A stretch of 64,000 nt of DNA from Pseudomonadota bacterium (GTDB lineage Bacteria > Pseudomonadota > Alphaproteobacteria > Acetobacterales > Acetobacteraceae), in NCBI GenBank assembly GCA_021798915.1, contig JAJZBM010000005.1, positions 1-64,000 of the forward strand. The letters run 5' to 3'. This document shows, piece by piece, positions 7,046 through 45,093 of this stretch. Under the pieces are notes generated by a model, which was not told where the DNA came from, made no database searches, and saw only the letters and a program-made list of their open reading frames with translations. How positions within the stretch are numbered: the stretch's first letter is position 1; every line of letters begins with the position of its first letter. A program made the translations under genes and the position numbers.

Positions 7046-8431
7046 TCAGTTGAGGAAGATTTTGCCCGGATTCAAAATGCCGTTCGGATCGAGCGCGGTT
7101 TTCAACGACCGCATCACCGCGAGCGCCTCGGCGCCGTGTTCGGCTTCCAGGAATTCGCGCTTGCCAATGCCGACCCCGTGCTCGCCGCTGCATGAGCCGC
7201 CGAGCGCCAGCGCCCGGCCGACGATCTGGCGATCGAGCGCCCAGGCGCGCGCCAGGGCGTCCGGGTCGTTTTTCGGGATCAGAATCACGGTATGGAAATT
7301 GCCGTCGCCGACATGGCCGACGATCGGCGCGGTGAGGCCGGAGGCGAGAATATCCGCCTTGGCGCCGAGCACCGCCTCGGCGAGGCGGGAGATCGGCACG
7401 ATGGCGTCGGTGGTCACGCCGAAATACCCGGGCTTGAGCGCAAGCCCCGCCCAATAGAGGTCGTGGCGCGCTTTCCAGAGATGCGCCCGCTCCTCCTCGG
7501 CGACCGCCCAGCGAAACGCCGCGCCGCCGTTCTCGCCCGCGATCGCCTCGGCGAGTTCCGCCTGCTCGCGCACCCCGGCATGGCTGCCGTGGAACTCGAA
7601 AAACAGGGTCGGACGCAAGGCAAGGCCGGAGAGTTTGGAATAGGCGATCGCCGCCCCGATCGCCTCGTCATCGAGCAATTCGATGCGGGCGACCGGAATC
7701 CCGGACTGGATGATCGCGATCACGCTCGCGACGGCGCCGGCGAGATCGTCGAACTGGCAAACCGCCGCCGCCATCGCTTCCGGAATGCCGGAGAGCTTGA
7801 GCGTGATTTCGGTGATGACGCCGAGCGTCCCCTCCGAGCCGATGAAGAGCCGCGTCAGATCATAGCCGGTCGCCGATTTGCGGACGCGCCCGCCGGTCTG
7901 GATCACCCGCCCATCGGCCAGCGCGACGGTGAGGCCGAGGGTGTTTTCACGGATGGTGCCATAGCGCACCGCGTTGGTGCCCGAGGCGCGCGTCGCGCAC
8001 ATGCCGCCGAGCGTGCATTCGCTGCCCGGATCGACCGGGAAAAACATCCCCTGGTCACGCAGATGGGCGTTCAATTGCTGGCGCGTGACGCCGGCCTCGA
8101 CGCGGCAGTCGAGATCGGCCTGGTTGACCTCGAGAATGGTCTTCATGCGCGAAAGATCGAGCGAGATGCCGCCGCGCACCGGCGTCACATGGCCTTCGAG
8201 CGAGGTGCCGGCGCCGAACGGCACGACAGGGACGCGCGCCGCATTGCAAAGCGCGAGCAGCCGCGCCGCCTCCGCGGTGGTTTCGATGAACGCGACGGCA
8301 TCGGGGAGGACCGGCGGGTTGGTGTCCTCGCCATGGGCGTGCTGCTCGCGGAGTGCCGTGTTGCGCGAAAGACGCGGGCCGAGAAACGCTTCGGCGTCAC
8401 GGATGACCCGGCTGATCGCGGCTTCGCTCAT
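7046..8431 (-). CDS. FAD-linked 2-hydroxyacid dehydrogenase (D-lactate dehydrogenase/GlcD family)
   Basis: A 461-residue flavoprotein of the vanillyl-alcohol-oxidase fold. Seen: the FAD PP-loop VVPFGAGTSLEGH (68-80), followed by the second pyrophosphate segment PGSECTLGGMCATRASGTNAV, IGSEGTLGVITE, and the C-terminal GEHGVGIGK with DPNGILNPGKIF. These match the D-lactate dehydrogenase (cytochrome)/GlcD group, which oxidises a D-2-hydroxyacid to a 2-oxoacid and passes electrons to the respiratory chain. It lies 89 bases upstream of livK on the same strand, so co-transcription with the importer is possible. It diverges from the aldolase/dehydratase pair. Confidence 0.85.
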   Translation of the reverse strand: MSEAAISRVIRDAEAFLGPRLSRNTALREQHAHGEDTNPPVLPDAVAFIETTAEAARLLALCNAARVPVVPFGAGTSLEGHVTPVRGGISLDLSRMKTILEVNQADLDCRVEAGVTRQQLNAHLRDQGMFFPVDPGSECTLGGMCATRASGTNAVRYGTIRENTLGLTVALADGRVIQTGGRVRKSATGYDLTRLFIGSEGTLGVITEITLKLSGIPEAMAAAVCQFDDLAGAVASVIAIIQSGIPVARIELLDDEAIGAAIAYSKLSGLALRPTLFFEFHGSHAGVREQAELAEAIAGENGGAAFRWAVAEEERAHLWKARHDLYWAGLALKPGYFGVTTDAIVPISRLAEAVLGAKADILASGLTAPIVGHVGDGNFHTVILIPKNDPDALARAWALDRQIVGRALALGGSCSGEHGVGIGKREFLEAEHGAEALAVMRSLKTALDPNGILNPGKIFLN

Positions 8432-20553: not shown

Positions 20554-20754
20554 GCGCTAAGTCCCTCCTCTCTCGATCGCGGCCGCAAGTTTGAACACGG
20601 CTTGCGATCAGGCGAAATGGCGCCTGGCGCCGAGACGGCGCGGATTTTTCGGACGACGCCTCATTCCATGGGATAATGCGTCGTTTTTATAAACATTGTC
20701 TTAAGCATTTTGGGTGATCCTCCCAATGGTAGCTCACAAAAAGGAGACACACCA
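20554..20754 (+). promoter_or_regulatory. Flagellin upstream region
   Basis: This 201-base divergent gap is AT-richer than its surroundings. It holds a GATAAT that could be a -10 (20672-20677) without a convincing -35, and a good AAGGAG ribosome site at about 20741. I found no sigma-28 or sigma-54 consensus. Confidence 0.3.
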
Positions 20755-21990
20755 ATGTCAATGTCCATCAACACCAATGTCGGCGCTCTGGCGGCCCTGG
20801 ATTCTTTGAATTCAACCTCGGAAGCGCTCAACAACACCCAGAACGTCGTCGCAAGCGGGCTCCTCGTCGGCAGCGCGAGCGACAACCCGGCCGTCTACTC
20901 GATCTCGCAGACCATGCAGGCGAATATCTCCGGCTTGACTGCGGTTCAGGACAATCTTTCCTTCGGCAACTCCGTGCTCGGGGTCGCCGCCGCCGCCGGC
21001 TCGCAGATCTCGAGCCAGCTCGCGACGCTGCAGAACACGGTCACGCAAGCGCAGCAGACCGGCATCTCGTCGGCGACGATGAATACCCAGATCGGCAATA
21101 TCCTGAAAAATATAGACAATTTCGCCAATAACGCGACCTTCAACGGCGTCAACCTGCTGGCCGCCAGCGGCACCACCGGCGTTTCCACGACCAGCATGGT
21201 GATCCAGGATACGATCAATGCCGGTGGGCAGCTCACGGTGAGCAACCAGATCGGCGCGAGCACCTCGATGACACAGGCGCTCGGCCTCACCAACCTGACC
21301 GCTGCGGCGGGCGGGCAACAGTTCAGCTTCAGCAGCAGCTACGCACCGGCCGCCGGCGATTATCTCCAACTCTCCAACGGCACCAATAACTGGGTCTTCG
21401 AATTCCAGACCACGGGTGCGACGCCGGTCGCCGCGCCCAGCGGCTACACGCTCGGCACGAATGCCGGCGGCGGCACCAACTCCCTCACCAACGTGATCAT
21501 GGGCACCAGCACCTCGCCGATGGCGGCGGTGGGCGCCTTGATCAGCGCCCTGCAGCAGAACGGCTTCGCCGCCTCGCTCAGCAACAGCGGCAATCTGACG
21601 ATCGCCGGCAATAACCTCGCCAGCGCCGGTTCGGCCTGGGAAAAGACCGGGACCGCCTATGCCGCCGGCTCGGCTACCAACGAGGCCGGCGTCACCCAAA
21701 CCGCCCTTGGCGCCGGGCAGGCGGCGATCACCATCGTCCAGGACGCCGTTTCCTCGATGAACGGCATCGCCGCGACGATCGGTGCGACGCAACAGGAGGT
21801 GACGGGGATGATGAACTTCTCCTCCTCGCTCTCGACCTCGCTCACCACCGGTTCGGGGGCCTTGATCGACGCCAACATGGCGTCCGAAAGCGCGCAATTG
21901 AACTCGCTGCAAACCAAGCAGCAGCTCGCCATCCGCACGCTCTCGATCGCCAACGCTCAGCCGCAGGTTCTCTTGAACCTGTTCCAGTAA
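20755..21990 (+). CDS. Flagellin
   Basis: A 411-residue filament subunit. The N-terminal D0/D1 helices are typical: INTNVGALAALDSLN, NNTQNVVASGLLVGSASDNP, with SISQTMQANISGL. The C-terminal D1/D0 helices end in TKQQLAIRTLSIANAQPQVL. The central part is Gly/Ser/Thr/Asn-rich and variable, as expected for surface-exposed D2/D3 domains. It carries no cysteine. The ATG at 20755 is fixed by AAGGAGACACACCA. flaF follows after a strong hairpin. Confidence 0.93.
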   Translation: MSMSINTNVGALAALDSLNSTSEALNNTQNVVASGLLVGSASDNPAVYSISQTMQANISGLTAVQDNLSFGNSVLGVAAAAGSQISSQLATLQNTVTQAQQTGISSATMNTQIGNILKNIDNFANNATFNGVNLLAASGTTGVSTTSMVIQDTINAGGQLTVSNQIGASTSMTQALGLTNLTAAAGGQQFSFSSSYAPAAGDYLQLSNGTNNWVFEFQTTGATPVAAPSGYTLGTNAGGGTNSLTNVIMGTSTSPMAAVGALISALQQNGFAASLSNSGNLTIAGNNLASAGSAWEKTGTAYAAGSATNEAGVTQTALGAGQAAITIVQDAVSSMNGIAATIGATQQEVTGMMNFSSSLSTSLTTGSGALIDANMASESAQLNSLQTKQQLAIRTLSIANAQPQVLLNLFQ

Positions 21991-24559: not shown

Positions 24560-26008
24560 TCACGCCTCGATCCGCACATACTCGAAATCGCCCGGTTTGT
24601 TGTCGATGCCGGCTTTCGGGGGCGCGATCCAGGTGGCGTATTCGCCGGCGGCGTAACAGGGGCGCATCAGGCTGGCGATGAAGGCGCCGTCCGCGGCGTC
24701 GGGCAGGAACTCGCCCCGCCGCGCCTGCCACGCCTCGGCGCTCAGCAGCGCCCCCGCGGGGTCGGTCTCGACCGCGGCGAACTCGCCGATGCGGCGGTTG
24801 AAGGCGACATGCGGGAGATGCAATTCGAAAGCGACGCCGAGTTTCGCGATCAGCGTGTTCCAGCGCCGCACGCCGGAGAGGCAATCGGCGACGTAATCAT
24901 CGCGGAGCCGCATGTTGAGCGCCGACAGCGCCGGCACATCCGCGTTCCGGATCGCGCCATCGATCAGGCGGAGCACCGGATAGGAATCGCCGCGGAGCTG
25001 ATGATCATCGGTGAGCTTGTCCTCGCGATAGCGCCCCTTGAGCCCGGCGTGGAACGCATTGGCGGCGTTGGTGCTGATTTCGTTTCCGAAAAGATCGAGG
25101 GTGAGCGAGAAATGGAGATTGAGCTTCTTCTGGATGGTCGGCAGATCGATGACACCGAGTGCGCGCACGCGCGCGATGTCGGAGGGATCGGTGATACCGG
25201 CCTCGCGCATCGCCTCGCAGGTGCGTTGAATGGTGCGCGAAATGCCGGAATCGCCGACGAACATGTGATGCGCTTCCTCGGTCAGCATGAAGCGGCAGGT
25301 GCGCGATAGCGGATCGAATCCCGATTGCGCCAGCGCCGCGAGCTGCATTTTGCCGTCACGGTCGGTGAAGAAGGTGAACATGAAAAACGAGAGCCAATCC
25401 GGCGTCGCCTCGTTGAAGGCGCCCAGCATGCGTGGCGCGTCGCGATCGCCGGAGCGGCGGCGGAGCAGGTCTTCCGCCTCCTCGCGCCCGTCGCGGCCAA
25501 AATATTTGTGCAGGAGATAGACCATCGCCCAGAGATGCCGCCCCTCCTCGACATTCACCTGAAAGAGATTGCGGAGGTCGTAGAGCGAGGGGGCGGTCGC
25601 GCCGAGATGGCGCTGCTGCTCGACCGAAGCCGGTTCGGTATCGCCCTGGATCACGATCAGGCGGCGCAGCATGGCGCGGTATTCGCCGGGCACTTCCTGC
25701 CACGCTTTCTCACCCTTATGCGCGCCGAAGGGGATGCGGCGATCGGGCACGGCGGGGGCGAGCAGGATGCCCCAGCGATATTCCGGCATGCGCACGTAAT
25801 CGAATTTCGTCCAGCCCTCGGGATCGACGCCGATCGCGGTGCGGAGATAGACGAGGCTCTCCTGGAACCCCTCCGGCCCCATCGTCTTCCACCAGTCGAT
25901 ATAGCCGGGATGCCAGGTCTCCAGCGCCTTTTTCACCCGCGGATCGGCGTTGAGGCCGACATTGTTCGGGATCAGCCCATCATAATCGACATCCATGCCA
26001 TCGGGCAT
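24560..26008 (-). CDS. boxB: Benzoyl-CoA 2,3-epoxidase subunit BoxB
   Basis: A 482-residue diiron oxygenase that epoxidises benzoyl-CoA. ExxH iron motifs occur at EEGRH (155-158) and EEAHH (245-248), with a further Glu in TEPASVEQQ. It has the long C-terminal portion typical of BoxB, including AKLGVAFELHLPHVAFNRRIGEF. It needs electrons from the reductase BoxA, which is not encoded nearby. boxC lies 44 bases upstream on the same strand. Confidence 0.93.
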   Translation of the reverse strand: MPDGMDVDYDGLIPNNVGLNADPRVKKALETWHPGYIDWWKTMGPEGFQESLVYLRTAIGVDPEGWTKFDYVRMPEYRWGILLAPAVPDRRIPFGAHKGEKAWQEVPGEYRAMLRRLIVIQGDTEPASVEQQRHLGATAPSLYDLRNLFQVNVEEGRHLWAMVYLLHKYFGRDGREEAEDLLRRRSGDRDAPRMLGAFNEATPDWLSFFMFTFFTDRDGKMQLAALAQSGFDPLSRTCRFMLTEEAHHMFVGDSGISRTIQRTCEAMREAGITDPSDIARVRALGVIDLPTIQKKLNLHFSLTLDLFGNEISTNAANAFHAGLKGRYREDKLTDDHQLRGDSYPVLRLIDGAIRNADVPALSALNMRLRDDYVADCLSGVRRWNTLIAKLGVAFELHLPHVAFNRRIGEFAAVETDPAGALLSAEAWQARRGEFLPDAADGAFIASLMRPCYAAGEYATWIAPPKAGIDNKPGDFEYVRIEA

Positions 26009-26052
26009 TTGTCATCTCCTCCGCTGCCGCATCGCTCTTCTGCCGCGCGCGC

Positions 26053-27699
26053 TCAGACGCGGCGGAAATCGTAATCGGGCTGCACGCCACTGCCGTAGCG
26101 CTTCAACGCCCCCGCTTCGCCGATCGCGTTCGGGCGCTGGAACACCCAGTTCTGCCAGGCGGTGAGGCGGGCGAAGATGCGCGTCTCCATGGTCTCCGGG
26201 CCGGGGACGCGGAGATTGGCTTCCATCGCGGTCAGCGCATCGGGGGAAAAACTCGCCCGTTCCTCCAGCATCACCCGCACCTCGTCCGCCCAATCCACTT
26301 CATCGAAGCCGAGCGTGATCAGCCCCGCCGCCTCGGCCGCTTCGGCTCCGAGCGGGGTGGCCAGGAGATCGCGGGCCCGCGCGAGGCCCTCGGGATCGCC
26401 GAGAAAACGTGCCCCGAGACGGGTCAGATCATTGCCCATCGGATAGGCGCCGAAATTGAGTGGCCCGAGTGCGACCCGCGCCACTGCCTGGCCGGCATCG
26501 GCGCCGGAGAGCATGAGGGCGCGGTCGGCGGCGAGCACGAGTTCGGCGAGGGTTCCGGCAAAACAAGAGCCGGGTTCGACGAGCGCGATCACGCTGCGCG
26601 CCGTCATGTCGAGGCGTTTGAACACCCGCTTGAGATAGAGCCGGATTTCACGCACCAGCCAGTCCGCGCGGTGATCCTCGAGCAGCCGGTCACAGGCCTG
26701 CACCGCATCGAGATCGCCACGGCTGCGCAGGACCAGGGTGCCGATTTCGGGCTCGTTGGCGCGGAGATGCAAAATCGCGTCATCGAGGGCGCGGGCGAAG
26801 GCGAGCGGCCAGAAGGCGGCGCCGGCGCGATGGATGCCGGCGCGATCGGCGGGCAAATCGGTTGGGCCGTGGATGAGGAGATCGGCGCGCCGCGCCGCCC
26901 GGTCGAGGGTGACGTCGAGTGTCGGGTAATGGCGGGCGTTTTCGGAGGTTTCGCGCGCGAGCGGGGTGAGTTCGATCCCCCGCGCCGTCGCCGGGCGGTC
27001 GCTCCGCGCCGCAAACGCCTCGGCGCGGGCGGTGATGGTCGCCTCCCAGGCGCTGGGCGGCACCAGTTCATCGACCAGCCGCCAGTCCCGCGCCCGCGCG
27101 CCGCGCACCCCCTCCTCCATCAGGCAGAAGAGATCGGCGCGATCGCGGCGCAGGCGGCGCTTGTCGGTCAGCCGGGTCAGCCCGCCGGTGCCGGGGAGGA
27201 CGGCGAGCAGCGCGACCTCGGGGAGGGAGACCGTCGAACGGCGATCATCGATGAGCAGGATGTGTTCGGCGGTCATCGCCAGTTCATAGCCGCCGCCGGC
27301 CGCGGTGCCGTTCACGGCGGCGAGGTAGGTTTGGCCGGAATGGGTGCTCGCATCCTCGATCGCAAGCCGCGTCTCATTGGTGAATTTACAGAAATTGACT
27401 TTATGGGCGTGCGTCGCGCCGGCGAGCATGCGGATATTGGCGCCGGCGCAGAACACCCCCGGTTTCGCCGAGCCGAGCACCACGGCGCCGATCTCGGGAT
27501 GCTCAAAGCGCAGACGCTGGACCGCGTCGGCGAGTTCGATATCGACGCCGAGATCATAGGAATTGAGCTTCAATTCATAACCCTCGGCGAGGCCGCCGGC
27601 GGGATCGACATCCATGAGGAGCCGCGCGACGCGCCCCTCGCATGCGATCCGCCAATGGCGATAGCGGTCGGGATGGGTCTGGAAATCGATGTGTTTCAT
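26053..27699 (-). CDS. boxC: 2,3-epoxybenzoyl-CoA dihydrolase BoxC
   Basis: A 548-residue double-crotonase-fold enzyme that opens the ring of 2,3-epoxybenzoyl-CoA, releasing formate. The first crotonase half has KPGVFCAGANIRML and NGTAAGGGYELAM; the second has SVIALVEPGSCFAGTLAELVLAADRALML. The C-terminal ELGVPAPER-like region ends in VQPDYDFRRV, and the length fits BoxC. It forms an operon with boxB. A -10 TATAAT lies 63 bases upstream. Confidence 0.93.
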   Translation of the reverse strand: MKHIDFQTHPDRYRHWRIACEGRVARLLMDVDPAGGLAEGYELKLNSYDLGVDIELADAVQRLRFEHPEIGAVVLGSAKPGVFCAGANIRMLAGATHAHKVNFCKFTNETRLAIEDASTHSGQTYLAAVNGTAAGGGYELAMTAEHILLIDDRRSTVSLPEVALLAVLPGTGGLTRLTDKRRLRRDRADLFCLMEEGVRGARARDWRLVDELVPPSAWEATITARAEAFAARSDRPATARGIELTPLARETSENARHYPTLDVTLDRAARRADLLIHGPTDLPADRAGIHRAGAAFWPLAFARALDDAILHLRANEPEIGTLVLRSRGDLDAVQACDRLLEDHRADWLVREIRLYLKRVFKRLDMTARSVIALVEPGSCFAGTLAELVLAADRALMLSGADAGQAVARVALGPLNFGAYPMGNDLTRLGARFLGDPEGLARARDLLATPLGAEAAEAAGLITLGFDEVDWADEVRVMLEERASFSPDALTAMEANLRVPGPETMETRIFARLTAWQNWVFQRPNAIGEAGALKRYGSGVQPDYDFRRV

Positions 27700-35553: not shown

Positions 35554-36096
35554 ATGCGTCTCGATGCTATCGCCATCGGCTATAATCCCCCGGACGACGT
35601 CAATGTCGTGATCGAGGTCGGGGTTGGCGGTGAGCCGGTCAAATATGAAATGGACAAGGCGGCGGGTACCCTGGTGGTTGATCGCTTTCTCCACACGCCG
35701 ATGCGCTATCCCGGCAATTACGGTTTCGTCCCGCACACCTTGTCCGATGACGGCGACCCGATCGATGTTCTGATCGCCAATACCCGCCCGATCGTGCCCG
35801 GCGCGGTGATCAATGTCCGCCCGATCGGCGTCCTCAAGATGGTGGACAATGCTGGCGGCGACGAGAAAATCCTCGCCGTACCATCCCCCAGGCTGACCAA
35901 ACGCTATGTCCACGTGATGAACTATACGGATCTGCCGGAAATCACCATCGGACAGATCCAGCATTTCTTCGAGCACTACAAGGATCTCGAACCCGGCAAA
36001 TGGGCCAAGATCGCCGGCTGGGGAGACGCCGAGGAAGCGCGGCGGTTGATCCGGGAAGCGATCCTGCGCGAGCAGGAGGCTAAAAAGCGGCCATAG
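35554..36096 (+). CDS. ppa: Inorganic pyrophosphatase
   Basis: A 180-residue family I soluble pyrophosphatase, hexameric in bacteria, hydrolysing pyrophosphate. Seen: [26 protein letters not shown], the metal-binding DGDPIDVLI, and [14 protein letters not shown] near the C-terminus. It ends the plus-strand block and converges on coxF. Confidence 0.96.
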
Positions 36097-36129: not shown

Positions 36130-36969
36130 TCACGGCGCGGTGCGCTGAGGCCGCCGGCGGCATGCGGTGATTTCGGCGAGGATGGAGAGCGCGATCTCCT
36201 CCGGTGTGACCGCATCGATCGCGAGGCCGGCCGGGGCGTGCAGCCGCTCCAGCCGCGTGGGGTCGACACCCTGCCCGCTCAACGCCGCGCGCAGCACCGC
36301 GACCTTGCGGCGCGAGCCGACGAACGCGACGTAGCCGGCGGAAGCGTCGAGCGCGGCCTGGAGCGCCGCCTCATCGCCGCTACCCTGGGTCGCAACGACG
36401 ATATAGCGTTCGGCGGGCGCGAGGTCTCTGAACGCATAGGCGGTGAGCCGCGCATCCGGCGCCTCGAAGGCGATCTGGGATGCCTCCGGGGCGGCGGCGC
36501 GCACGAAATAGCCGAACTGGCGGGCGAGGCTCGCCAATGCCACCGCAACCGGCGAGGCGCCACAGACGAGCAACTCCGGGCGCGGCAACACCGGTTCGAC
36601 GAAAACGTCCATTCCGCCTTGGCTCGGGCAGGCATTCCTCGCGAAATGAATGCCGCAACGGTCCTCCCCTGGCTGCACGCCCTGGGTTTGCAGGACGTCG
36701 AGCGGCTGGACCGACACCAGCCGCGGCCGCCCATCCGTCATCGCGGCGCGGGCCGCCTTGAGCACCGCCGCACGGGCGCAGCCGCCGCCGATCCAGCCCG
36801 CAGCGATCGCGCCATCGGCCCGGATCACCGCTTTCGCGCCGGCTTTCGCCGCGGTCAGTGAGACGGTGCGCACCACCGTTGCGACCGCGAACGGGGCCCC
36901 CGCGGTTTTCAACACGCCGATCAGAGCGAGGATGTCGTCGGCCGCATTCATCGCCATGTCTTCCCTCAT
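36130..36969 (-). CDS. coxF: CoxF / XdhC-family maturation protein
   Basis: A 279-residue XdhC/CoxI-type protein. The N-terminal part has VATVVRTVSLTAAKAGAKAVI and GWIGGGCARAAV, the C-terminal Rossmann-like part has LLVCGASPVAVALASLA and GYVAFVGSRRK. Family members deliver or sulfurate molybdenum cofactor for xanthine dehydrogenase-type enzymes. Its place after coxE (ATGA overlap at 36969) and its length point to CoxF. Alternative starts at 36957 and 36951. Confidence 0.82.
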   Translation of the reverse strand: MREDMAMNAADDILALIGVLKTAGAPFAVATVVRTVSLTAAKAGAKAVIRADGAIAAGWIGGGCARAAVLKAARAAMTDGRPRLVSVQPLDVLQTQGVQPGEDRCGIHFARNACPSQGGMDVFVEPVLPRPELLVCGASPVAVALASLARQFGYFVRAAAPEASQIAFEAPDARLTAYAFRDLAPAERYIVVATQGSGDEAALQAALDASAGYVAFVGSRRKVAVLRAALSGQGVDPTRLERLHAPAGLAIDAVTPEEIALSILAEITACRRRPQRTAP

Positions 36970-38135
36970 AGCCGGCGCAGGGAGTCTTCCAGGGCCGCCA
37001 AACCCTCCAGCGAGCCGGCTGGCGCCAATAGGCGGAGATGGGGCAGCGCCGCCTGCATGCCCTGGGCGATCGGCGCGTCATCGGCGCGCGTCAGTACCGG
37101 ATTGAGCCAGACGATGCGCCGGCAGCGCCGCCGCAGCGCCGCCATCTCGCGGCCGAGCAATGCGGGATCGCTGGTCTCGAACCCGTCGGAGACGATGAAG
37201 CAGACCGCGCGGCCGGCAAGAGCGCGCGGCGCGTGGCGGCGATTGAAAAGGCCGATCGCCTCGCCGAGACGCGTGCCGCCGCCGATCCCCTTGGCGAGCA
37301 AAGTGAGCCGGTCGAGGGCGCGCGGCCGGTCGCGATCGCGCATCGCCTCGCCGACGCTGGCTAGCCGCGTGTGGATGAGGAACACCTCCGCCTTCTCCGC
37401 CCGTCGCATTACGCCAAGCGCGAAGCGCAGGAACAGCGGGGTGTGCAGGTTCATCGAGCCGGAGACGTCGAGCAGCAGCGCGATACGGAGCGGCTGCGGG
37501 CGTGGCCGCTTCCAGACGAGTTCGAAGGGCATGCCGCCATGCCCGAGGCTTTCGCGGATCGTCTGTCGCAGGTCGAGCCGGCCGCCATGCCGCACGCGCC
37601 GCCTTTGCCGCCCATCGCGCGCCCGGAGCCGGGTGATCAGCCGGAGAGCAACCGCCTCGGCGGCGGCGAGTGCATCTGGATCGCCGAGCTGCCGCATGTC
37701 GCGCGCGGCATCGCTCGCCGTCGTGGACATGCCGCCTTGCATGGCTTCTTCGGCGCCGATCGCCTCTCCGGCTGCCATCGCCGATGCCGCTTCCGCGCCG
37801 CTGTCCCGGTGCCGCTCAGCCCGCTCGGCGGCGAGTTCGCGGAGCGAGCGCGGCCCCGGCGTTGCTGGCGGCGCGCCGCTCACCCGCACCATCTGGCGCG
37901 CGCGCCGGCCGAGGAAGGCGGCATCGAAGAGGGCATCGAAGCGTTCCCAGTCGGCGCGCCGGCCGGCGAACAGGGCGCGCAGGGCGGGGCGCAGGGTCGC
38001 GGCGCTGCGGGCGAGTGGCGAGGCGATGATGCGCGCCGCATCGGCGCTCTCGCTCATGCCGGTGGCGAAGCCGGCTTCGCGCAATGTTGCCGAAAACGCG
38101 GCGATTCGTCGGGCGATCAGGGTTTCGGCGCGCAT
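36966..38135 (-). CDS. coxE: CoxE, von Willebrand A-domain maturation protein
   Basis: A 389-residue CoxE-like protein. The C-terminal half is a VWA domain with an intact metal site: DVSGSMNLHTP (DxSxS), then TRLGEAIGLFNRR and FIVSDGFETSD. The N-terminal half is Arg/Ala-rich and helical. In Oligotropha, CoxE works with the AAA ATPase CoxD to build the copper-sulfur part of the CO dehydrogenase active site. It begins five bases after coxD ends. Confidence 0.88.
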   Translation of the reverse strand: MRAETLIARRIAAFSATLREAGFATGMSESADAARIIASPLARSAATLRPALRALFAGRRADWERFDALFDAAFLGRRARQMVRVSGAPPATPGPRSLRELAAERAERHRDSGAEAASAMAAGEAIGAEEAMQGGMSTTASDAARDMRQLGDPDALAAAEAVALRLITRLRARDGRQRRRVRHGGRLDLRQTIRESLGHGGMPFELVWKRPRPQPLRIALLLDVSGSMNLHTPLFLRFALGVMRRAEKAEVFLIHTRLASVGEAMRDRDRPRALDRLTLLAKGIGGGTRLGEAIGLFNRRHAPRALAGRAVCFIVSDGFETSDPALLGREMAALRRRCRRIVWLNPVLTRADDAPIAQGMQAALPHLRLLAPAGSLEGLAALEDSLRRL

Positions 38136-38139
38136 TGCC

Positions 38140-39051
38140 TCACGCCACCCGGGCGATCAGGCGTGAGAACGCGATGCGATCGATCTGCGCGTGGTCCTCT
38201 TGCGTTTTGAGGAGGCAGGCGAGGGTTTCATAGAGCATCTCCGGCGCGTCACCGAGATCACGCACGCCGAGACCGAGCAGGGCTGCGACCCAATCCAGGC
38301 TTTCGGCAACCCCTGGAACCTTGCGGAGCGGCTCCTTGCGAAGGGCCGCGACCAGGCGCGCCGCCTGTCCCGCGAGATCGATGCCGAGGGTGGGCAGACG
38401 CGCGCGGAGGATCGCGACCTCGCGATCGACGGATGGATAATCGATGAAGTGATAGAGGCAGCGCCGGCGCAGCGCGTCCGATAATTCGCGGGTGCCGTTC
38501 GCGGTGAGCACGACGTGCGGGATGCTGCGCGCGCGGATCGTGCCGAGTTCCGGGATGCTCACCTGGAAATCGGACAGCAATTCGAGCAGGAAGGCTTCGA
38601 ACGCCTCGTCGGCGCGGTCGAGCTCATCGATCAGCAAGACCGGCGGGCGCGCCTCGCGGATCGCGGCGAGCAAAGGGCGTTCGAGAAGATAGCGCTCGCT
38701 GAACAGGGCCTCCTCGATCTCCTCCGCGCCCTCGCGCCCGCCTGCGTCCCGTACCCCCGCGTCCCGTGCCCCCGCTTCCCGTGTCTTGATCGCCAGCAAC
38801 TGGCGCTGGTAGTTCCATTCATAGAGCGCGCTCGCCTGATCGAGCCCCTCATAGCATTGCAGCCGGATCAGACGGGTATCGTGGATCGCCGCGAGCGCGG
38901 TGGCGATGGCGGTCTTGCCGACCCCGGCGGCCCCTTCGAGCAGGAGCGGCCGGCCCAGCATCGCCATCAGCAGGAGCGCGGTCGCGAGATCCTGGTCGGC
39001 GACATAGCCGGTGGCGGCGAGACGTTCGGCGATCTCTGCGCGCGTCAACAC
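38140..39051 (-). CDS. coxD: CoxD, MoxR-type AAA+ ATPase
   Basis: A 303-residue MoxR-family ATPase. Walker A is LEGAAGVGKTAIA, Walker B is VLLIDELDRAD, sensor 1 is VLTANGTRELSDALRRRC. Known role of CoxD: unfolding-type remodelling of apo-CO dehydrogenase so that sulfur and copper can be inserted. Between Walker A and B is an insertion of three 5-residue repeats (AGARD-AGVRD-AGGRE) coded by a 15-bp minisatellite. GTG at 39051 is chosen; a TTG follows at once and could also serve. Confidence 0.88.
   Translation of the reverse strand: MLTRAEIAERLAATGYVADQDLATALLLMAMLGRPLLLEGAAGVGKTAIATALAAIHDTRLIRLQCYEGLDQASALYEWNYQRQLLAIKTREAGARDAGVRDAGGREGAEEIEEALFSERYLLERPLLAAIREARPPVLLIDELDRADEAFEAFLLELLSDFQVSIPELGTIRARSIPHVVLTANGTRELSDALRRRCLYHFIDYPSVDREVAILRARLPTLGIDLAGQAARLVAALRKEPLRKVPGVAESLDWVAALLGLGVRDLGDAPEMLYETLACLLKTQEDHAQIDRIAFSRLIARVA
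38741..38785. repeat. Three 15-bp tandem repeats in coxD
   Basis: 15-mers start at 38741, 38756 and 38771 with the core cgtcccgt. They add the 5-residue AG(A/V/G)RD repeat inside CoxD without changing the frame. Confidence 0.8.
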
Positions 39052-39076
39052 CGCCCCTCCGGTTGCGCCCCCGCGG

Positions 39077-41497
39077 TCATCCCTGCGCCCCGAGCGCCTC
39101 CGCCGCTTGCCACAGGCGCCAGGCATCGTGCGGCATCTGGATGTGGGTCGCGCCGAGGAAGGCGAAAGCGTCGTTCACGGCGTTCGAGAAGGCCGGCACG
39201 CCGCCGACATTCGGGCTCTCGCCGACCCCCTTGGCGCCGATCGGATGATGCGGGGAAGGGGTGACGGTGAAATCGGTCTCCCATTTCGGCGTCTCGACCG
39301 CGGTCGGCAGGAAGAAATCCAGGAACGAAGCCCCCTTCACATTGCCGATTTCGTCATAGGCGATCTCCTGGCCCATGGCGATCGCGAAGGCCTCGGTCAG
39401 CCCGCCATGCACCTGCCCCTCGATGATCATCGGGTTGATGCGCGTGCCGCAATCATCGAGCGCGTAGAAGCGGCGAATCTTCGCGACCCCGGTATCGACG
39501 TCGATGTCCATCACACAGATATAGGCGCCGAAGGGGTAGGTCATGTTCGGCGGATCATAGTAGTTGACCGCCTCCAATCCCGGCTCCAGGCCGGGCGGTG
39601 GCGCGCTATAGGCGGTCCAGGCGATGTCCTTCATCGTCTTGAACCGCTCCGGCATGCCCTTGACGCGGAAGCGGTCGATATCGAACTCCACGTCGTCGTG
39701 ATGCACTTCGAGGAGGTGGGCGGCGATCATCTGCGCCTTCGCCTTGATCTTGCGGCAGGCCATGGCGGTAGCGGCGCCGGCGGTGGGCGTCGAGCGCGAA
39801 CCATAGGTGCCGAGCCCGTAGGGGGCGGTATCGGTATTACCCTCCTCGATCATCACGTCATCGGCCGGGATGCCGAGTTCGGAGGCGATGATCTGGGCGT
39901 AGGTCGTCTCGTGCCCCTGCCCCTGGCTCTTGGTGCCCATGCGGGCGATCACCGCGCCCGTCGGGTGGATGCGGATTTCGGCGCTGTCGAACATCGCGAT
40001 GCCGAGGATGTCGCAATTCTTCGCCGGCCCGGCGCCGACGATCTCGGTGAAGAAGGCAATCCCGATGCCCATGATCTCGCGGGTCTCGCCGCGCCGGAAG
40101 GCTTCCCGCCGCGCCGTCTGCTCGGCGCGGAGCGCGCTGTAGCCGACCGCGTCCAGCGCCTTCTGCAGGGCGGTGTGGTAGTCCCCGGAATCGTATTCCC
40201 AGCCGAGCGCGGAGTGATAGGGAAATTGCTCGCGGCGGATGAAATTGCGCATCCGGATCTCGGCCGGATCGATCCCCAGCTTGTGGGCCAGGATGTCCAT
40301 GGCGCGCTCGATACAATAGGCCGCCTCGGTCACCCGGAAGGAGCAGCGATAAGCGACGCCGCCCGGCGCCTTGTTGGTGTAGACCCCGTCCACCGCGACA
40401 TGCGCGATCGGAAAATCATAGGAGCCGGTGACGATGTTGAAGAAGCCGGCGGGCCATTTGGAGGGGTCGGCGCAGGCATCGAACGCGCCATGATCGGCGA
40501 GCACATGCACGCGGAGCGCCTTCACCCGGCCCTCGCGCGTCGCCGCGATTTCCGCCGTCATGTGATAGTCGCGGGCGAACGCGGTGGTGGAGAGGTTCTC
40601 GATCCGATCCTCCACCCATTTCACCGGCCGCCCGGTGACGATCGAGGCGACGATCGCGCAGACATAGCCGGGATAGACGCCGACCTTGTTGCCGAAGCCG
40701 CCACCGATATCGGGCGCGATGACGTGGATCTTGTGTTCTGGAATCCCGGAGAGAATCGCCGCCACCGTGCGCACCACATGCGGCGCCTGGAAGGTGCCCC
40801 AGACGGTAAGCTCGCCCTTGATCTTGTCGAACGAGGCGACCGACTGGCAGGTCTCCAACGGGCAGGGATGCACACGCTGATAGGAGATCAGTTCCTTGAT
40901 CGTCACCTCCGCCTCGCGGAAGGCGAGATCGGTCGCCTCGCGATCGCCGATTTCCCAGGTGAAGATGTGGTTGGGGTGCTTGCGCTCGCCATGCGCGCCG
41001 GTGGTCTTGTCCTTGATGTCCTCGCGCAGGATCGGCGCATCCTCCGCCATCGCCTTGAACGGATCGACGAGCGCCGGCAGCGCCTCGTATTCCACCTCGA
41101 CGAGATCGGCGGCATCGGCCGCGATATAGCGTTCGGTCGCGACGATGAAAGCGATTTCCTGGTTCTGGAACAGCACTTTGTCGCCGGCCAGAACCGCCTG
41201 GACATCGCCCGCGAGGGTCGGCATCCAGTCGAGCTTGAGCGGTTTCAGATCCTCGGCGGTCAGCACCGCGAGCACGCCCGGCACCGCTTTCGCCTTGCTG
41301 GTGTCGATCCGCTTGATGCGCGCATGGCCATAGGGCGAGCGGTGGAAATCGCCATAGAGCATGCCGGGCAGTTTGAGATCGTCGACATACTTGCCCTTGC
41401 CCTGGGTGAAGCGGACATCCTCGACCCGCTTGCGCTTGCAGCCGAGCCCCTGAAGCCGGGCCTCGCGGACCTCGCGGGTTTCGCTCATCTCGTTCAT
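39077..41497 (-). CDS. coxL: Aerobic CO dehydrogenase large subunit CoxL, form I
   Basis: An 806-residue molybdopterin subunit. The active-site loop reads VAYRCSFR with Cys385, the form I signature of true CO dehydrogenases, whose Cys binds copper in Oligotropha (Cys388). The catalytic Glu is in [10 protein letters not shown] (Glu760, against Glu763). Also seen: [14 protein letters not shown] and [11 protein letters not shown] for cofactor binding. It oxidises CO to CO2 and passes electrons via CoxM and CoxS to the respiratory chain. ATG at 41497 overlaps coxS; a second ATG three codons inside is possible. Confidence 0.95.
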
Positions 41498-41994
41498 GCC
41501 GCGGCCTCCTCGAGGTTTTCGCCGTTGAGCCGTGCGGCCGCGAAGGCGATCGCCCGCACGATGTTCTGATAGCCGGTGCAGCGGCAGAGATTGCCGGCGA
41601 TGCCGGCGCGGATCTCATCCTCCGAGGGGTTGGGGATCTCCTGCAGCAGCCGGTAGGCGCGCATGATCATCCCGGGCGTGCAGAAGCCGCATTGCAACCC
41701 GTGCATTTCACGAAACCCCTCCTGCAGGGGGTGGAGCGTGCCGTCCGCCGCCGCCAGACCCTCGATCGTGCGGATCGCGGCCCCTTCCGCCTGCACCGCG
41801 AAGAGTGTGCAGGATTTCACCGAACGGCCATCGAGATCGACCGTGCAGGCGCCGCAATGGGTGGTATCGCACCCGATATGGGCGCCGGTCAGGTCGAGCT
41901 GCTCGCGCAGGAAATGGATGAGCAGCGTGCGTGGTTCGACCAGCGCTTCGACCGGATCGCCGTTCACGGTGAGCGAGAGCGGGATCTTCTTCAT
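41494..41994 (-). CDS. coxS: CO dehydrogenase small iron-sulfur subunit CoxS
   Basis: A 166-residue subunit with two [2Fe-2S] clusters. Cysteines 42, 47, 50 and 62 (plant-ferredoxin-type cluster) and 102, 105, 137 and 139 (second cluster) stand exactly where they do in the 166-residue Oligotropha CoxS. It carries electrons from the molybdenum site to FAD. ATG at 41994 is chosen for this length; it begins 13 bases after coxM ends. Confidence 0.95.
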
Positions 41995-42007
41995 GCCGTT
42001 CCTCCTT

Positions 42008-42874
42008 TCAAGCGCCGATCCGGGCCACGGCCCGGGCAAGGGCGCGCCGCGTCATCACGCCGGCCATTTTGGTGCGGTACTCCACCGGGCCACGCCCGTC
42101 GGCGGTGGGGGCGACGATCGCCTCGACCGCGCGTGCCGCCGCCGCGAAGGCGCGCTCATCGGGCGTCTCGCCGATCAGCATGGCCGCCGCCGCCTCGGCC
42201 AGAAGCGGCGTCGGGGCGAGATTGGTGAGGCCGATCGCGCAGGTCGCGATTCGTCCCGCCTCGAGGGTGAGCATCACGGCGGCGGCGGCGGTCGCGTAAT
42301 CGCCGATTTTGCGCTTGAGCTTCTCATAGGCGTGGCCGTGCCCGGGTGGGGCGGCGGGAATCTGGATCGCGGTCAGGATCTCGCCCGCCGCGAGCGCGGT
42401 GACATAGGCGCCGAGATAGAAATCGCGCGCCTTCACCCGCCGCTCCCCCTTGGCCCCGGCGAGATGATAGACGGCATCGAGGCACATCATCAGCGCCGGC
42501 ATGTCGTTCCCGGGATCACCGTTGGCGACGTTGCCGCCGAGCGTGCCGCAATAGCGGATCTGCGGGTCGGCGATCTGGCGCGCGGTCTCGCCGATGATCG
42601 GAAGACCAGCCGGCAGCGCCTCATGCCCGATCAGCGCCGCTTGGGTGGTGGTCGCCCCGATCACCCAGGTCTCCCCCTCGCGCCGGATGCCCTTTAGCGC
42701 CGCGATGCCGCCGAGATCGATCAGATGTTCGGGGGTCGCGAGGCGAAGCTTCATCATTGGAATGAGACTGTGGCCGCCGGCGAGCGCCCGGCCGTCTTCC
42801 GGGTGGGCGGCGAACAGCGCCACCGCCTCGGCGAGGCTTTGGGGGCGATGATAGGCGAATGGGCCCGGAATCAC
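42008..42874 (-). CDS. coxM: CO dehydrogenase FAD subunit CoxM
   Basis: A 288-residue FAD-binding subunit. Seen: the start [18 protein letters not shown], the first FAD motif [14 protein letters not shown], the second FAD motif [19 protein letters not shown], and [19 protein letters not shown] at 42874 with GGGGAGGAG upstream gives the same length as Oligotropha CoxM, so it is preferred to an ATG at 42943. First of the structural genes in the canonical M-S-L order. Confidence 0.95.
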
Positions 42875-42921
42875 GGCGTTCTCCTCCCCGGATGATGATG
42901 TTGGGCCCGCAAGCCGGGCCG

Positions 42922-42949
42922 GTGGCCATAACCGAGTGGCCATAACCGA
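42922..42949. promoter_or_regulatory. 14-bp tandem repeat upstream of coxM
   Basis: gtggccataaccga occurs twice without a gap (42922-42935, 42936-42949), 48 bases before the coxM start. On the coding strand it reads TCGGTTATGGCCAC twice. GGTTATG partly resembles the LytTR half-site core (GTTNRK). A likely binding site for CoxC or another cox regulator. Confidence 0.55.
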
Positions 42950-43026
42950 ATGGTCGGGGACAAGTATTCAGGAGCCGGCGACCCGCCGCCAAAGCCTAAT
43001 GCACGAGAGCCCGAATGCCGGGTTGG

Positions 43027-43056
43027 GCGCATGAAAAGCTGTGTTTGCGCATGAAA
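43027..43056. promoter_or_regulatory. 10-bp direct repeats at 20-bp spacing after coxC
   Basis: gcgcatgaaa at 43027-43036 and 43047-43056, two helical turns apart, four bases beyond the coxC stop and about 150 bases before coxM. Same-face direct repeats are what LytTR-domain regulators bind. Confidence 0.5.
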
Positions 43057-43060
43057 TGCG

Positions 43061-44371
43061 TCAGATGGGCTGTCCTTCCGCGCGGGCGTCGAGCGAGGCC
43101 CGCAGCGTCGGGTAGCGGCTCCGGCTCACCGGAACCGGCAATCGGGTGCCGGCGAGCCAGGCGAGGCCGCCATCGCCGGTCCGCTCGATCGAGGTCACGG
43201 CATCGAAGGCGACCAAATGGCTGCGATGGACGCGGATGAAACGTTTGGGGTCGAGCTTCTGTTCCACCGCGCTGATCGATAATTGGCATAGGGCCTCGCC
43301 CTCGCCATCCACGAGCATCGTGTAATGCCCGTTGGCATGAACCGCGCGCAGGGCACCGACCTCGATATAGATCGTGCGGCCCTGGCGCTCGGCAGGCAGG
43401 GCGACCGCCGCACGGCGCGGCGGCGGGCCATCCGCGCCACGTGACGGGGCCGCGCCACTGACCTCGTCGGCCTGGTGTGGCAGCGTCTCCACCCCGCCTC
43501 GCCCTGCCTCCGCCCAGGACGGATCGGCGAGGGGGGGATCGGCGGGGGGCGGATCGGCGGGGGGAGACGGCACGGCGGCGAGCGCCGCCTGCGGCATCAC
43601 GCCAGCGGCGCTCGCCCAGGAAAACGGCGGCGAGGGGCCGGCCGGCCGACCAACGGGTGGATCCGCGTCCCGCTCCGGGGGCAAAGCCAGCAGAAAGCCG
43701 AGCGAGATCGCGATCGCGACCGCTGCCACCGCCACGGCGAAGATCTCGGGTGACAACCCAGCGCCGGCGGCCGCCGGCGGGGCGCAGACCACCATCGTCG
43801 TGCCTTCCATCGCCGTATAATGCATCCCGGAGATGGCGAGCCCGATCAGGACCGCCGCGCTCACCGGCGGCTGGCGCGCGGTTCCGGTCCGGAGCGCCAG
43901 ATGCAGGCCGAGCCCGGAGGCGGAGATCCCGACGATCGCGCTCGCGATCACATAGGCGGGGTTGTAGCTTAGGATGAAATCGGTGCTGAGCGCCGACATG
44001 CCGATGAAATGCATCCCGACGATGCCGGTGCCCATCAGCAGCGCGCCGCACAGGAAGGCGGAACGGGACAGAGGATGGTTCGCCACCAGGGCGATGGCGC
44101 CGGCGACCGCGAGGATCGCGACGAGGAAGGAGAGAAGGGTCGGATCGAGCAGGTAATGCGCGGGGGAAGGCATGCGGAGGGCCAGCATGCCGACGAAATG
44201 CATGCCCCAGATGGAGACCCCGAAGGTGATCGCCGACGCGCCGAGCAGGGCGAGACGTGCCTTACCGGCCGCCGCCCGCATGCGGGTGGCGAGGACGAGA
44301 GCAACGAACGCGCCCTGGATCGCGAGCAGGACGGGCAACAGGAAGAGCGACGGTGCGTATTGAATAGGCAA
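43061..44371 (-). CDS. coxC: CoxC-like MHYT sensor with LytTR DNA-binding domain
   Basis: A 436-residue membrane regulator. About 230 N-terminal residues form seven or so helices with three MHYT-type motifs (WGMHFVGM, VGMHFIGM, SGMHYTAM), proposed to bind metal and sense a diatomic gas. A Pro/Ala-rich linker follows, then a C-terminal LytTR domain (about 335-436: IYIEVGALRAVHANGHYTML, RFIRVHRSHLVAFDAVTSIER). CoxC precedes coxM in Oligotropha as here. No ATG fits; a TTG at 44371 behind AGAGGAAA is the probable start. Confidence 0.88.
   Translation of the reverse strand: MPIQYAPSLFLLPVLLAIQGAFVALVLATRMRAAAGKARLALLGASAITFGVSIWGMHFVGMLALRMPSPAHYLLDPTLLSFLVAILAVAGAIALVANHPLSRSAFLCGALLMGTGIVGMHFIGMSALSTDFILSYNPAYVIASAIVGISASGLGLHLALRTGTARQPPVSAAVLIGLAISGMHYTAMEGTTMVVCAPPAAAGAGLSPEIFAVAVAAVAIAISLGFLLALPPERDADPPVGRPAGPSPPFSWASAAGVMPQAALAAVPSPPADPPPADPPLADPSWAEAGRGGVETLPHQADEVSGAAPSRGADGPPPRRAAVALPAERQGRTIYIEVGALRAVHANGHYTMLVDGEGEALCQLSISAVEQKLDPKRFIRVHRSHLVAFDAVTSIERTGDGGLAWLAGTRLPVPVSRSRYPTLRASLDARAEGQPI
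43520..43564. repeat. Three 15-bp tandem repeats in the coxC linker
   Basis: 15-mers at 43520, 43535 and 43550 share ggatcggcgggggg. They encode PPADP-type units in the linker between the MHYT sensor and the LytTR domain, so copy-number change would alter linker length only. Confidence 0.8.
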
Positions 44372-44445: not shown

Positions 44446-44571
44446 GCGTAGATGAGAAAACCGCGCGGGGTGAGGGGCGTTGTCGATGGCCGGCGCGGGG
44501 GTGGGCGACAAACGCCGCCGAAGATGGCAAGATCGCGCGCATCGTCCCGTCCTTCATGGTTCCCCGCCCGC

Positions 44572-45093
44572 ATGCACCAGCTTCTGTTCCTGCGCCACGC
44601 CAAAGCCGCCGCCGCCAACCCTGGCGTGCCCGATGAGGCGCGGCCGCTGACGGCGCGCGGGAGCCGCGACGCGGCGGCGATCGGGGAGACGATGCGCGCC
44701 CGCGGCCTGCTCCCCGATCTCGTGCTGGTCTCCAGCGCCCGGCGCGCTCTGGAGACGCTGGCCGGGCTCGAACCCTGGGAGGAGACGCCGCTGATCGAGA
44801 CCATGGCGGCGCTCTATCTCGCGAGCGCTGGGCAGATCGTCGGGATTCTGAACGAGGTCGCGGAAACCGTGCGCAGCGTGCTGGTGATCGGCCATAATCC
44901 GGGTTTGCATGACTGCGCGCTGCGTCTTGCGGATCAGCACGGCGACGGCGCCAGGGCGCGGCTGGAAGCGGGGTTGCCGACCGGAACCCTGCTCGAATTC
45001 GCCTATGGCGGCCCTTGGGCGGCGCTCGGCGCCGGGCCGGCGCGGCTGCTCCGTTTCCTCTCGCCGCGCGATCTCACCGCGGCCGACGAATGA
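44572..45093 (+). CDS. sixA: SixA-type histidine phosphatase
   Basis: A 173-residue histidine-phosphatase-superfamily protein. The RHG-like motif is LFLRHAKA (His8), the acid region is TMAALYLAS, and the second His is in VIGHNPGLHDCA. SixA in E. coli dephosphorylates histidine phosphotransfer proteins; alphaproteobacterial relatives are less defined. The open frame continues upstream, but ATG at 44572 gives the usual N-terminus. Confidence 0.87.
   Translation: MHQLLFLRHAKAAAANPGVPDEARPLTARGSRDAAAIGETMRARGLLPDLVLVSSARRALETLAGLEPWEETPLIETMAALYLASAGQIVGILNEVAETVRSVLVIGHNPGLHDCALRLADQHGDGARARLEAGLPTGTLLEFAYGGPWAALGAGPARLLRFLSPRDLTAADE

Follow-up and report, generated by a model that had tools for sequence, protein, structure and literature searches.

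Does the cox cluster on contig JAJZBM010000005.1 of an Acetobacteraceae assembly (GCA_021798915.1) specify a true aerobic carbon monoxide dehydrogenase (CODH), and, if so, how is it controlled, what does it serve, and how did it reach its host? The window analysed here comprises positions 1 to 64,000 of this contig, and the cluster occupies positions 44371–36130 on its minus strand, with seven genes in the order coxC-M-S-L-D-E-F. The cluster very probably encodes a form I aerobic CODH together with maturation genes and a CoxC-type regulator. Genomes, loci and genus codes are referred to by our working handles (G, L and g, respectively), with G000 denoting the genome that contains the window. 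Papers are cited by their PubMed Central accession.

The large subunit CoxL (coxL, 39077–41497, minus strand), which would hold the Mo-Cu centre, scores 1470.9 bits against TIGR02416, the curated equivalog model of form I (cut-off 991.15), and matches the large chain of the solved CODH structure (1n5w_B) with 1534 bits and an E-value of 0. It is 79.9% identical to the protein encoded by plasmid pHCG3 of Afipia carboxidovorans. The active-site loop reads VAYRCSFR, which contains Cys385, and Glu760 is located in a GVGE motif. Form II clusters have the gene order S-L-M; the order here is M-S-L, as in form I. The published criterion for form I is the active-site motif (A/S)YRCS(F/L)R, not AYRGAGR (PMC13240472). 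In a 46-row tree that includes A. carboxidovorans CoxL, the split between forms I and II is supported at 100/100, and CoxL is positioned on the form I side. The first-pass annotation had called CoxL form I from its loop and had named a phylogeny as the check; profile score, loop, gene order and tree agree with that call, and CoxL does not branch with form II sequences.

Two CoxL trees were calculated. The first contained 93 rows, from which duplicates, other molybdenum enzymes of the host and, as near kin, 22 of the 80 named loci had been omitted; the named loci are the best 80 of 587 related stretches and represent a nearest-kin set. A warning that long branches meet at L007 accompanied this tree. 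The second tree, of 46 rows, left out 47, including L007, L123 and the fragment L104, and was built using LG+G4 with no mixture model.

The small subunit (coxS, 41494–41994, minus strand) is predicted to carry two [2Fe-2S] clusters (Pfam Fer2_2 and Fer2; 1n5w_A, 4.7e-85). Its cysteines are at residues 42, 47, 50, 62, 102, 105, 137, and 139, and a gap-free alignment gives the same numbers for A. carboxidovorans CoxS, so the earlier statement that all eight are numbered as in Oligotropha CoxS holds. The start of the gene is the ATG at 41994 and not the TTG that opens the longest open reading frame (ORF), and the product has 166 residues. The medium subunit (coxM, 42008–42874, minus strand) is predicted to bind flavin adenine dinucleotide (FAD), as it matches Pfam FAD_binding_5 and CO_deh_flav_C and contains AGGHS and GGNVA motifs. 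The three minus-strand genes that follow coxL are those of maturation. CoxD (38140–39048) is an AAA+ ATPase of the MoxR type (Pfam AAA families; 63% identity to the pHCG3 gene) with a proposed role in the assembly of the Mo-Cu centre. CoxE (36966–38135) is a VWA-domain protein (Pfam VWA_CoxE, 2.5e-53) and the presumed partner of CoxD. The last gene, coxF (36130–36969), encodes a maturation protein of the XdhC/CoxI family (Pfam XdhC_C and XdhC_CoxI; 56% identity to pHCG3 coxF). The genes form a tight operon, with four-base overlaps between coxS and coxL and between coxE and coxF. Ribosome-site-like sequences and conserved N-termini indicate that coxM most likely starts at the GTG at 42874, behind GGAGGAG, that coxD likely starts at the TTG at 39048, there being no ATG at its conserved N-terminus, and that the TTG at 44371 is the likely start of coxC.

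The subunits, the VAYRCSFR loop, the eight CoxS cysteines, the order C-M-S-L-D-E-F, and the MHYT-LytTR regulator are shared with A. carboxidovorans OM5 (pHCG3, PDB: 1N5W). The gene order had been described as canonical, which is correct for the core; however, pHCG3 has further cox genes around it. A transporter gene precedes its MHYT gene, and coxF is followed by coxG, two MHYT pieces, an XdhC-family gene, and a DMT transporter gene, which we read as coxB, G, H, I, and K. The cluster described here is without them. Searches of the window with the pHCG3 CoxB, G, I, and K proteins (tblastn) gave no match except coxF itself, and no second MHYT gene (coxH) was seen in the cluster. Unlike the plasmid-borne pHCG3 genes, the cluster is chromosomal as judged by its flanks (ppa and sixA). 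Scans of the window for Rfam families and tRNAs gave no match, and a scan of the cluster for terminators found one terminator-like site, inside coxL, with 3.6 expected by chance.

The first gene, coxC (43061–44371, minus strand), encodes a predicted membrane sensor with an MHYT domain (Pfam, 1e-39, three stretches) joined to a LytTR DNA-binding domain (1.8e-15), and the cluster thus has its own MHYT-LytTR regulator, as the first-pass annotation had proposed. The MHYT motifs are at residues 57, 120, and 183; with the TTG start, the first is at the position given for A. carboxidovorans CoxC (PMC11347149). In 2024 that protein was shown to be a repressor that senses CO in a copper-dependent manner and requires a set of three TTNNNGCN direct repeats (PMC11347149). 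The two proteins share the domain pair and the three MHYT motifs and are 37% identical, and a repeat triplet that fits TTNNNGCN is present beside the gene described here; the CoxC studied here has 436 residues with a longer linker versus 402 residues in A. carboxidovorans, and its function is predicted. Five bases past the coxC stop, before coxM, begins a direct repeat composed of TTCATGCG, TTCATGCG, and TTCGGGCT with a period of 20 bp (43008–43055, minus strand), which is the predicted CoxC operator. It is the only strict TTNNNGC direct-repeat triplet on either strand of the window, both at a period of 20–21 bp and at 18–21 bp. CoxC probably acts as a repressor at coxM, whereas the operator of A. 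carboxidovorans is positioned before coxB.

Similar repeats precede coxM in related loci. The 320 bases before the coxM start were scanned, and 88 of the 93 loci offered gave an upstream region. Pairs of TTNNNGC spaced by 20–21 bp are present in 40 of these 88 regions, versus a mean of 1.1 and a maximum of 6 in 200 dinucleotide-keeping shuffles. Triplets occur in 5 regions at a period of 20–21 bp (shuffle mean 0.0) and in 12 at 18–21 bp. When six of seven letters are demanded in each copy, pairs of the core TTCRTGC at 20–22 bp are found in 68 of the 88 regions, versus 0.9 in 100 shuffles, and the spacing of core pairs peaks at 21 bp (53 regions), 40 bp (29), 19 bp (26), and 20 bp (17). Of 1760 pieces of 323 bases drawn at random from these loci, some of which may contain the sites, 34 have pairs and 3 have triplets. 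Many of the loci are close kin, and L011 and L137 are the same DNA; the upstream regions are therefore not independent and the counts are inflated. We noticed both motif and period in these upstream regions before comparing them with the published TTNNNGCN. A tblastn match to CoxC is located upstream in 65 of the 69 named loci with at least 4 kb read there (11 of the 80 were too short). The alpha-type clusters of loci L010 and L133 (genus code g59; genomes G145 and G069) have coxM-S-L-D-E without a CoxC match upstream in the stretch read, and regulation there may differ. L010 has no coxF within about 8 kb, and the L133 stretch is too short to tell.

The proposed mechanism is as follows. Without CO, membrane-held CoxC would occupy the three repeats of the coxC–coxM gap and keep the expression of coxM-F low, and the binding of CO by a copper site of the MHYT domain would release it. 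CoxMSL, a form I aerobic CODH with Mo-Cu, two [2Fe-2S], and FAD, matured by CoxD, CoxE, and CoxF, would oxidize CO with water to CO2. The electrons would pass to the quinone pool, possibly through a CoxG encoded elsewhere in the genome. We infer both the activity of the enzyme and the expression of the cluster from sequence.

Several observations weigh against parts of this mechanism. Promoter scans of positions 42860–43080 and of the complete cluster gave no sigma-70-like promoter. A search of the 22 kb stretch of A. carboxidovorans pHCG3 (L119) gave no strict repeat triplet. A relaxed scan of pHCG3, allowing 11 of 12 letters, identified TTCATGCG-TTGGTGGA-TTTGGGCA 309 bp before the annotated coxB start, and the published CoxC binding probe contained 282 bp before the coxB ATG (PMC11347149); the relaxed triplet could be the published operator or a separate site. 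The relaxed level is not specific, because the window has 28 overlapping matches to it. Furthermore, coxG is not in the cluster. A CoxG (1.0e-38), 65% identical to pHCG3 CoxG over the aligned part, is encoded on contig 38, unlinked to the cluster and beside another coxD-E-F set. Since CoxG of like score is present in all four genus members without form I, the contig 38 protein may serve another enzyme.

CoxG is thought to link CODH to quinone, and coxG is unlinked in about 27% of marine genomes (PMC13240472). A CoxG count was possible for the 65 of the 80 named loci with at least 6.5 kb read downstream of coxL, the other 15 being dropped as too short. A match is present near coxL in 48 of them and in 17, including L009, there is none, which rules out the lack of a nearby CoxG as a special trait of this cluster. 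The position of coxG outside the operon raises the question of how electrons exit the enzyme. The region 38000–52000 of contig 38 (L145) contains the set coxG-coxD-coxE-XdhC and a gene for a MobA-like protein, with no CoxL match in the stretch read.

The host also has genes for carbon fixation. Contig 30 carries a cbb operon composed of a LysR gene (cbbR-like), fbp, prk, tkt, fba, rbcL, rbcS, an AAA gene (cbbX-like), rpe, and pgk, so that form I CODH, RuBisCO, and phosphoribulokinase genes are combined in one genome. A fructose-bisphosphatase gene is located near the pHCG3 cox cluster, and A. carboxidovorans carries cbb genes as well. With the cbb operon, the use of CO as the energy source for CO2 fixation is plausible, as is a CO-autotroph genotype, and we put the prospect that the host grows on CO at about even. 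A carboxydovore lifestyle, in which the enzyme scavenges trace CO during starvation and the cbb operon serves another electron donor, is a serious alternative with a chance just short of even. In carboxydovores, trace CO oxidized by form I enzymes aids survival, and these organisms usually lack cbb genes in complete form (PMC6794299). The presence of a cbb operon in the host argues against the carboxydovore alternative, as does a regulator of a type known from a carboxydotroph. A RuBisCO-family match was found in 18 of the 20 genomes tested and was strong (E < 1e-130) in nine. Strong matches occur in G073, G148, and G234, three of the four genus members that lack form I, versus six of the 16 form I carriers (G028 included), which indicates that cox and RuBisCO genes are not tied in the family and agrees with a separate use of the cbb operon.

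A search of the assembly gave no 16S rRNA gene. Gene content had suggested Acetobacteraceae as the host family, and this placement is supported by the grouping of the genome with named members of family and genus. The family group includes the genome of locus L010, Acetobacteraceae bacterium JOPF016 (same contig place in G002 and G145). The genus group includes G073; over 20000 bases, contig 2 of this genome and a plasmid of Acidibrevibacterium fodinaquatile, a species known from acidic mine water, have the same sequence. The nearest cluster-bearing genome, G196, is the metagenome-assembled genome (MAG) JA1.bin30 (locus L009), which belongs to the same genus group and has a CoxL 97% identical to that of the window. 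Acidibrevibacterium is placed in Acetobacteraceae (PMC9583776); a proposed split of the family keeps it in the order as a separate genus, outside the narrowed family (PMC10715153).

The spread of form I in the family was surveyed in 397 genomes drawn from the larger family, with at most two candidates scored per genome, and the counts are lower bounds. The form I cut-off is passed by at least 15 of the 397 genomes, in 8 of 102 genus codes. The 15 carriers are divided into two clades, nine of an alpha type that includes the window (100/98) and six positioned beside Paraburkholderia (100/99). A single clade of all family carriers is rejected in the 46-row tree (p-AU 3.8e-94) by the approximately unbiased (AU) test, which was chosen after the first CoxL tree was known. 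The two separate clades imply that the enzyme entered the family more than once. Genome G028 contains a CoxL fragment at a contig end, with the loop AYRCSFR and a score of 950.8 bits, just under the cut-off. In the first tree it groups with Roseibium, Chthonobacter, and a Dongia MAG, and it is a probable third source of form I in the family. The form I enzymes of the family would thus come from at least two sources, and probably three.

The Burkholderia-type enzymes (Paraburkholderia pBN2; host-family codes g54, g68, and g96; six genomes) are likewise form I, and their CoxL is 69–70% identical to that of the window. They differ in that coxG directly follows coxL in all six, and the LytTR gene is opposite in strand to coxM in the three of three loci read that far (L121, L139, and L140). 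Four of the six family CoxL proteins of this type (L095, L100, L101, and L102) have the loop SYRCSFR in place of AYRCSFR, as does the CoxL of Aestuarium (L120).

The flanks of the cluster bear on its origin. To the left is ppa, encoding inorganic pyrophosphatase (35554–36096, plus strand), which was named by reading the sequence, with no profile scan; to the right is a gene for a sixA-like histidine phosphatase (44452–45093, plus strand) with a weak Pfam His_Phos_1 match (20.1 bits, below the cut-off of 21.7). Both assignments draw on synteny. In A. fodinaquatile, the genes alaS-comF-DUF1178-ppa-sixA-CHAD-gltA are collinear with the window, the cox cluster is absent, and the gap between ppa and sixA is about 0.1 kb (the names CHAD and citrate synthase come from Pfam, whereas alaS, comF, DUF1178, and ppa were identified by reading). 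The collinearity of alaS-comF-DUF1178-ppa and sixA-CHAD-gltA shows that the contig is no chimera, and a contaminating contig is ruled out by the agreement of the flanks with both A. fodinaquatile and the sister MAG. In G266 the contig ends after ppa, in G234 ppa is beside a malate synthase G-like gene (by reading), and G148 has a distant ppa only (51%); A. fodinaquatile alone thus provides a clean empty-site comparison. Three of the four genus genomes without form I are drafts. The ppa-sixA gap of A. fodinaquatile (L129, about 7099–7195) contains an inverted-repeat-like pair, GGTTTTGATTGAACC / GGTTCAATCAAAACC, possibly a small repeat element.

Form I is present in two of the six sampled genus genomes, G000 and G196. 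The alaS tree groups these two (92/78) and places the four members without form I outside, so that one gain or three losses are needed. Furthermore, CoxL is more similar than alaS between G000 and G264 of genus code g59 (93.4% versus 81.1%, from an alaS fragment of 456 residues), while the values for G000 and G085 of g74 are 85.2% and 79.5%. It is likely that the cluster arrived by gene transfer, and it may have entered the genus recently. Foreign base composition was ruled out as a sign of transfer, as the GC fraction is 0.685 in the cluster versus 0.675 in the window. Vertical descent of the alpha-type clusters from a family ancestor, with losses in A. fodinaquatile and three other sampled genus members, would fit the single clade of the nine alpha-type CoxL rows. 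We nevertheless consider it unlikely, since the alpha type is found in just 5 of the 102 genus codes, and both the count of gains and losses and the CoxL and alaS identities to G264 and G085 argue against it, as does the location of cox and ppa on different contigs in G069 and G232, where contig breaks are possible. These points are not decisive, because the backbone of the alaS tree lacks resolution.

That CoxL is instead a form II enzyme or another molybdenum hydroxylase acting on a substrate other than CO is highly improbable: such enzymes have the same fold, and the genome has nine MoCoBD_1 matches, CoxL included, but the TIGR02416 score, VAYRCSFR loop, gene order, and tree rule this identity out, and the best form II-like enzyme of the host reaches 664 bits, below the form I cut-off. 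The latter enzyme, encoded on contig 33, has the loop AYRGAGR and the order S-L-M and is positioned on the opposite side of the tree, and thus provides a built-in control for the form I call. A second host enzyme with AYRGAGR is encoded on contig 51.

The family had been described in the first-pass annotation as seldom credited with CO oxidation. The low number of carriers in the survey agrees with this description, but the present cluster is not the first report. Transferred CoxLMS genes were reported in Acidiphilium (PMC7677001), and a survey of the family, which may include Acidibrevibacterium, lists the two CODH forms and calls their spread patchy (PMC10715153). Acidiphilium clades III and IV, which have CoxLMS, share the family and the acid-mine habitat with the host group described here, and RuBisCO genes are present in clades II and IV; they differ in being another genus, and their genes, compared here by description, are called horizontally transferred (PMC7677001). 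A literature search on Acidibrevibacterium and CO led to PMC10715153 and PMC8953465, and PMC9583776, on Acidibrevibacterium, mentions carbon fixation and not CO. A literature search on carboxydotrophs in Acetobacteraceae led to a paper on iron reduction. CODH is thus already known in the family from Acidiphilium, and the cluster adds a little-noticed host to a system of known kind. These findings leave the concept of aerobic CODH unchanged.

Taken together, the data allow the tentative proposal, to which we give somewhat less than an even chance, that CO autotrophy arose in a sub-clade of Acidibrevibacterium when a single clean insertion placed the seven form I genes between ppa and sixA, in addition to an existing Calvin cycle, with the operator between regulator and structural genes and CoxG borrowed from another molybdenum enzyme. 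Mining areas carry raised CO, and the water of acid mines is rich in metals and has little organic carbon (PMC7677001). A genus bearing genes of the Calvin cycle, with form I CODH in some species but not in the type species, is a natural pair for learning what CO oxidation adds; if the proposal is correct, comparison of this species with A. fodinaquatile would allow testing of what the operon alone adds. In that case, the operator between coxC and coxM would also be the usual alphaproteobacterial arrangement, and the placement before coxB in A. carboxidovorans the exception. The compact cluster pairs a predicted CO sensor of the CoxC type with a predicted operator amenable to a gel-shift test.

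Two further features were observed elsewhere in the window. The region 24560–27699 (minus strand) contains a weak PaaA_PaaC match (24.3 bits, below the cut-off of 28.5) beside a protein of the enoyl-CoA hydratase family, a pair that we take to resemble BoxB and BoxC of aerobic benzoyl-CoA breakdown. A flagellin gene at 20710–21990 (plus strand) points to a motile host.

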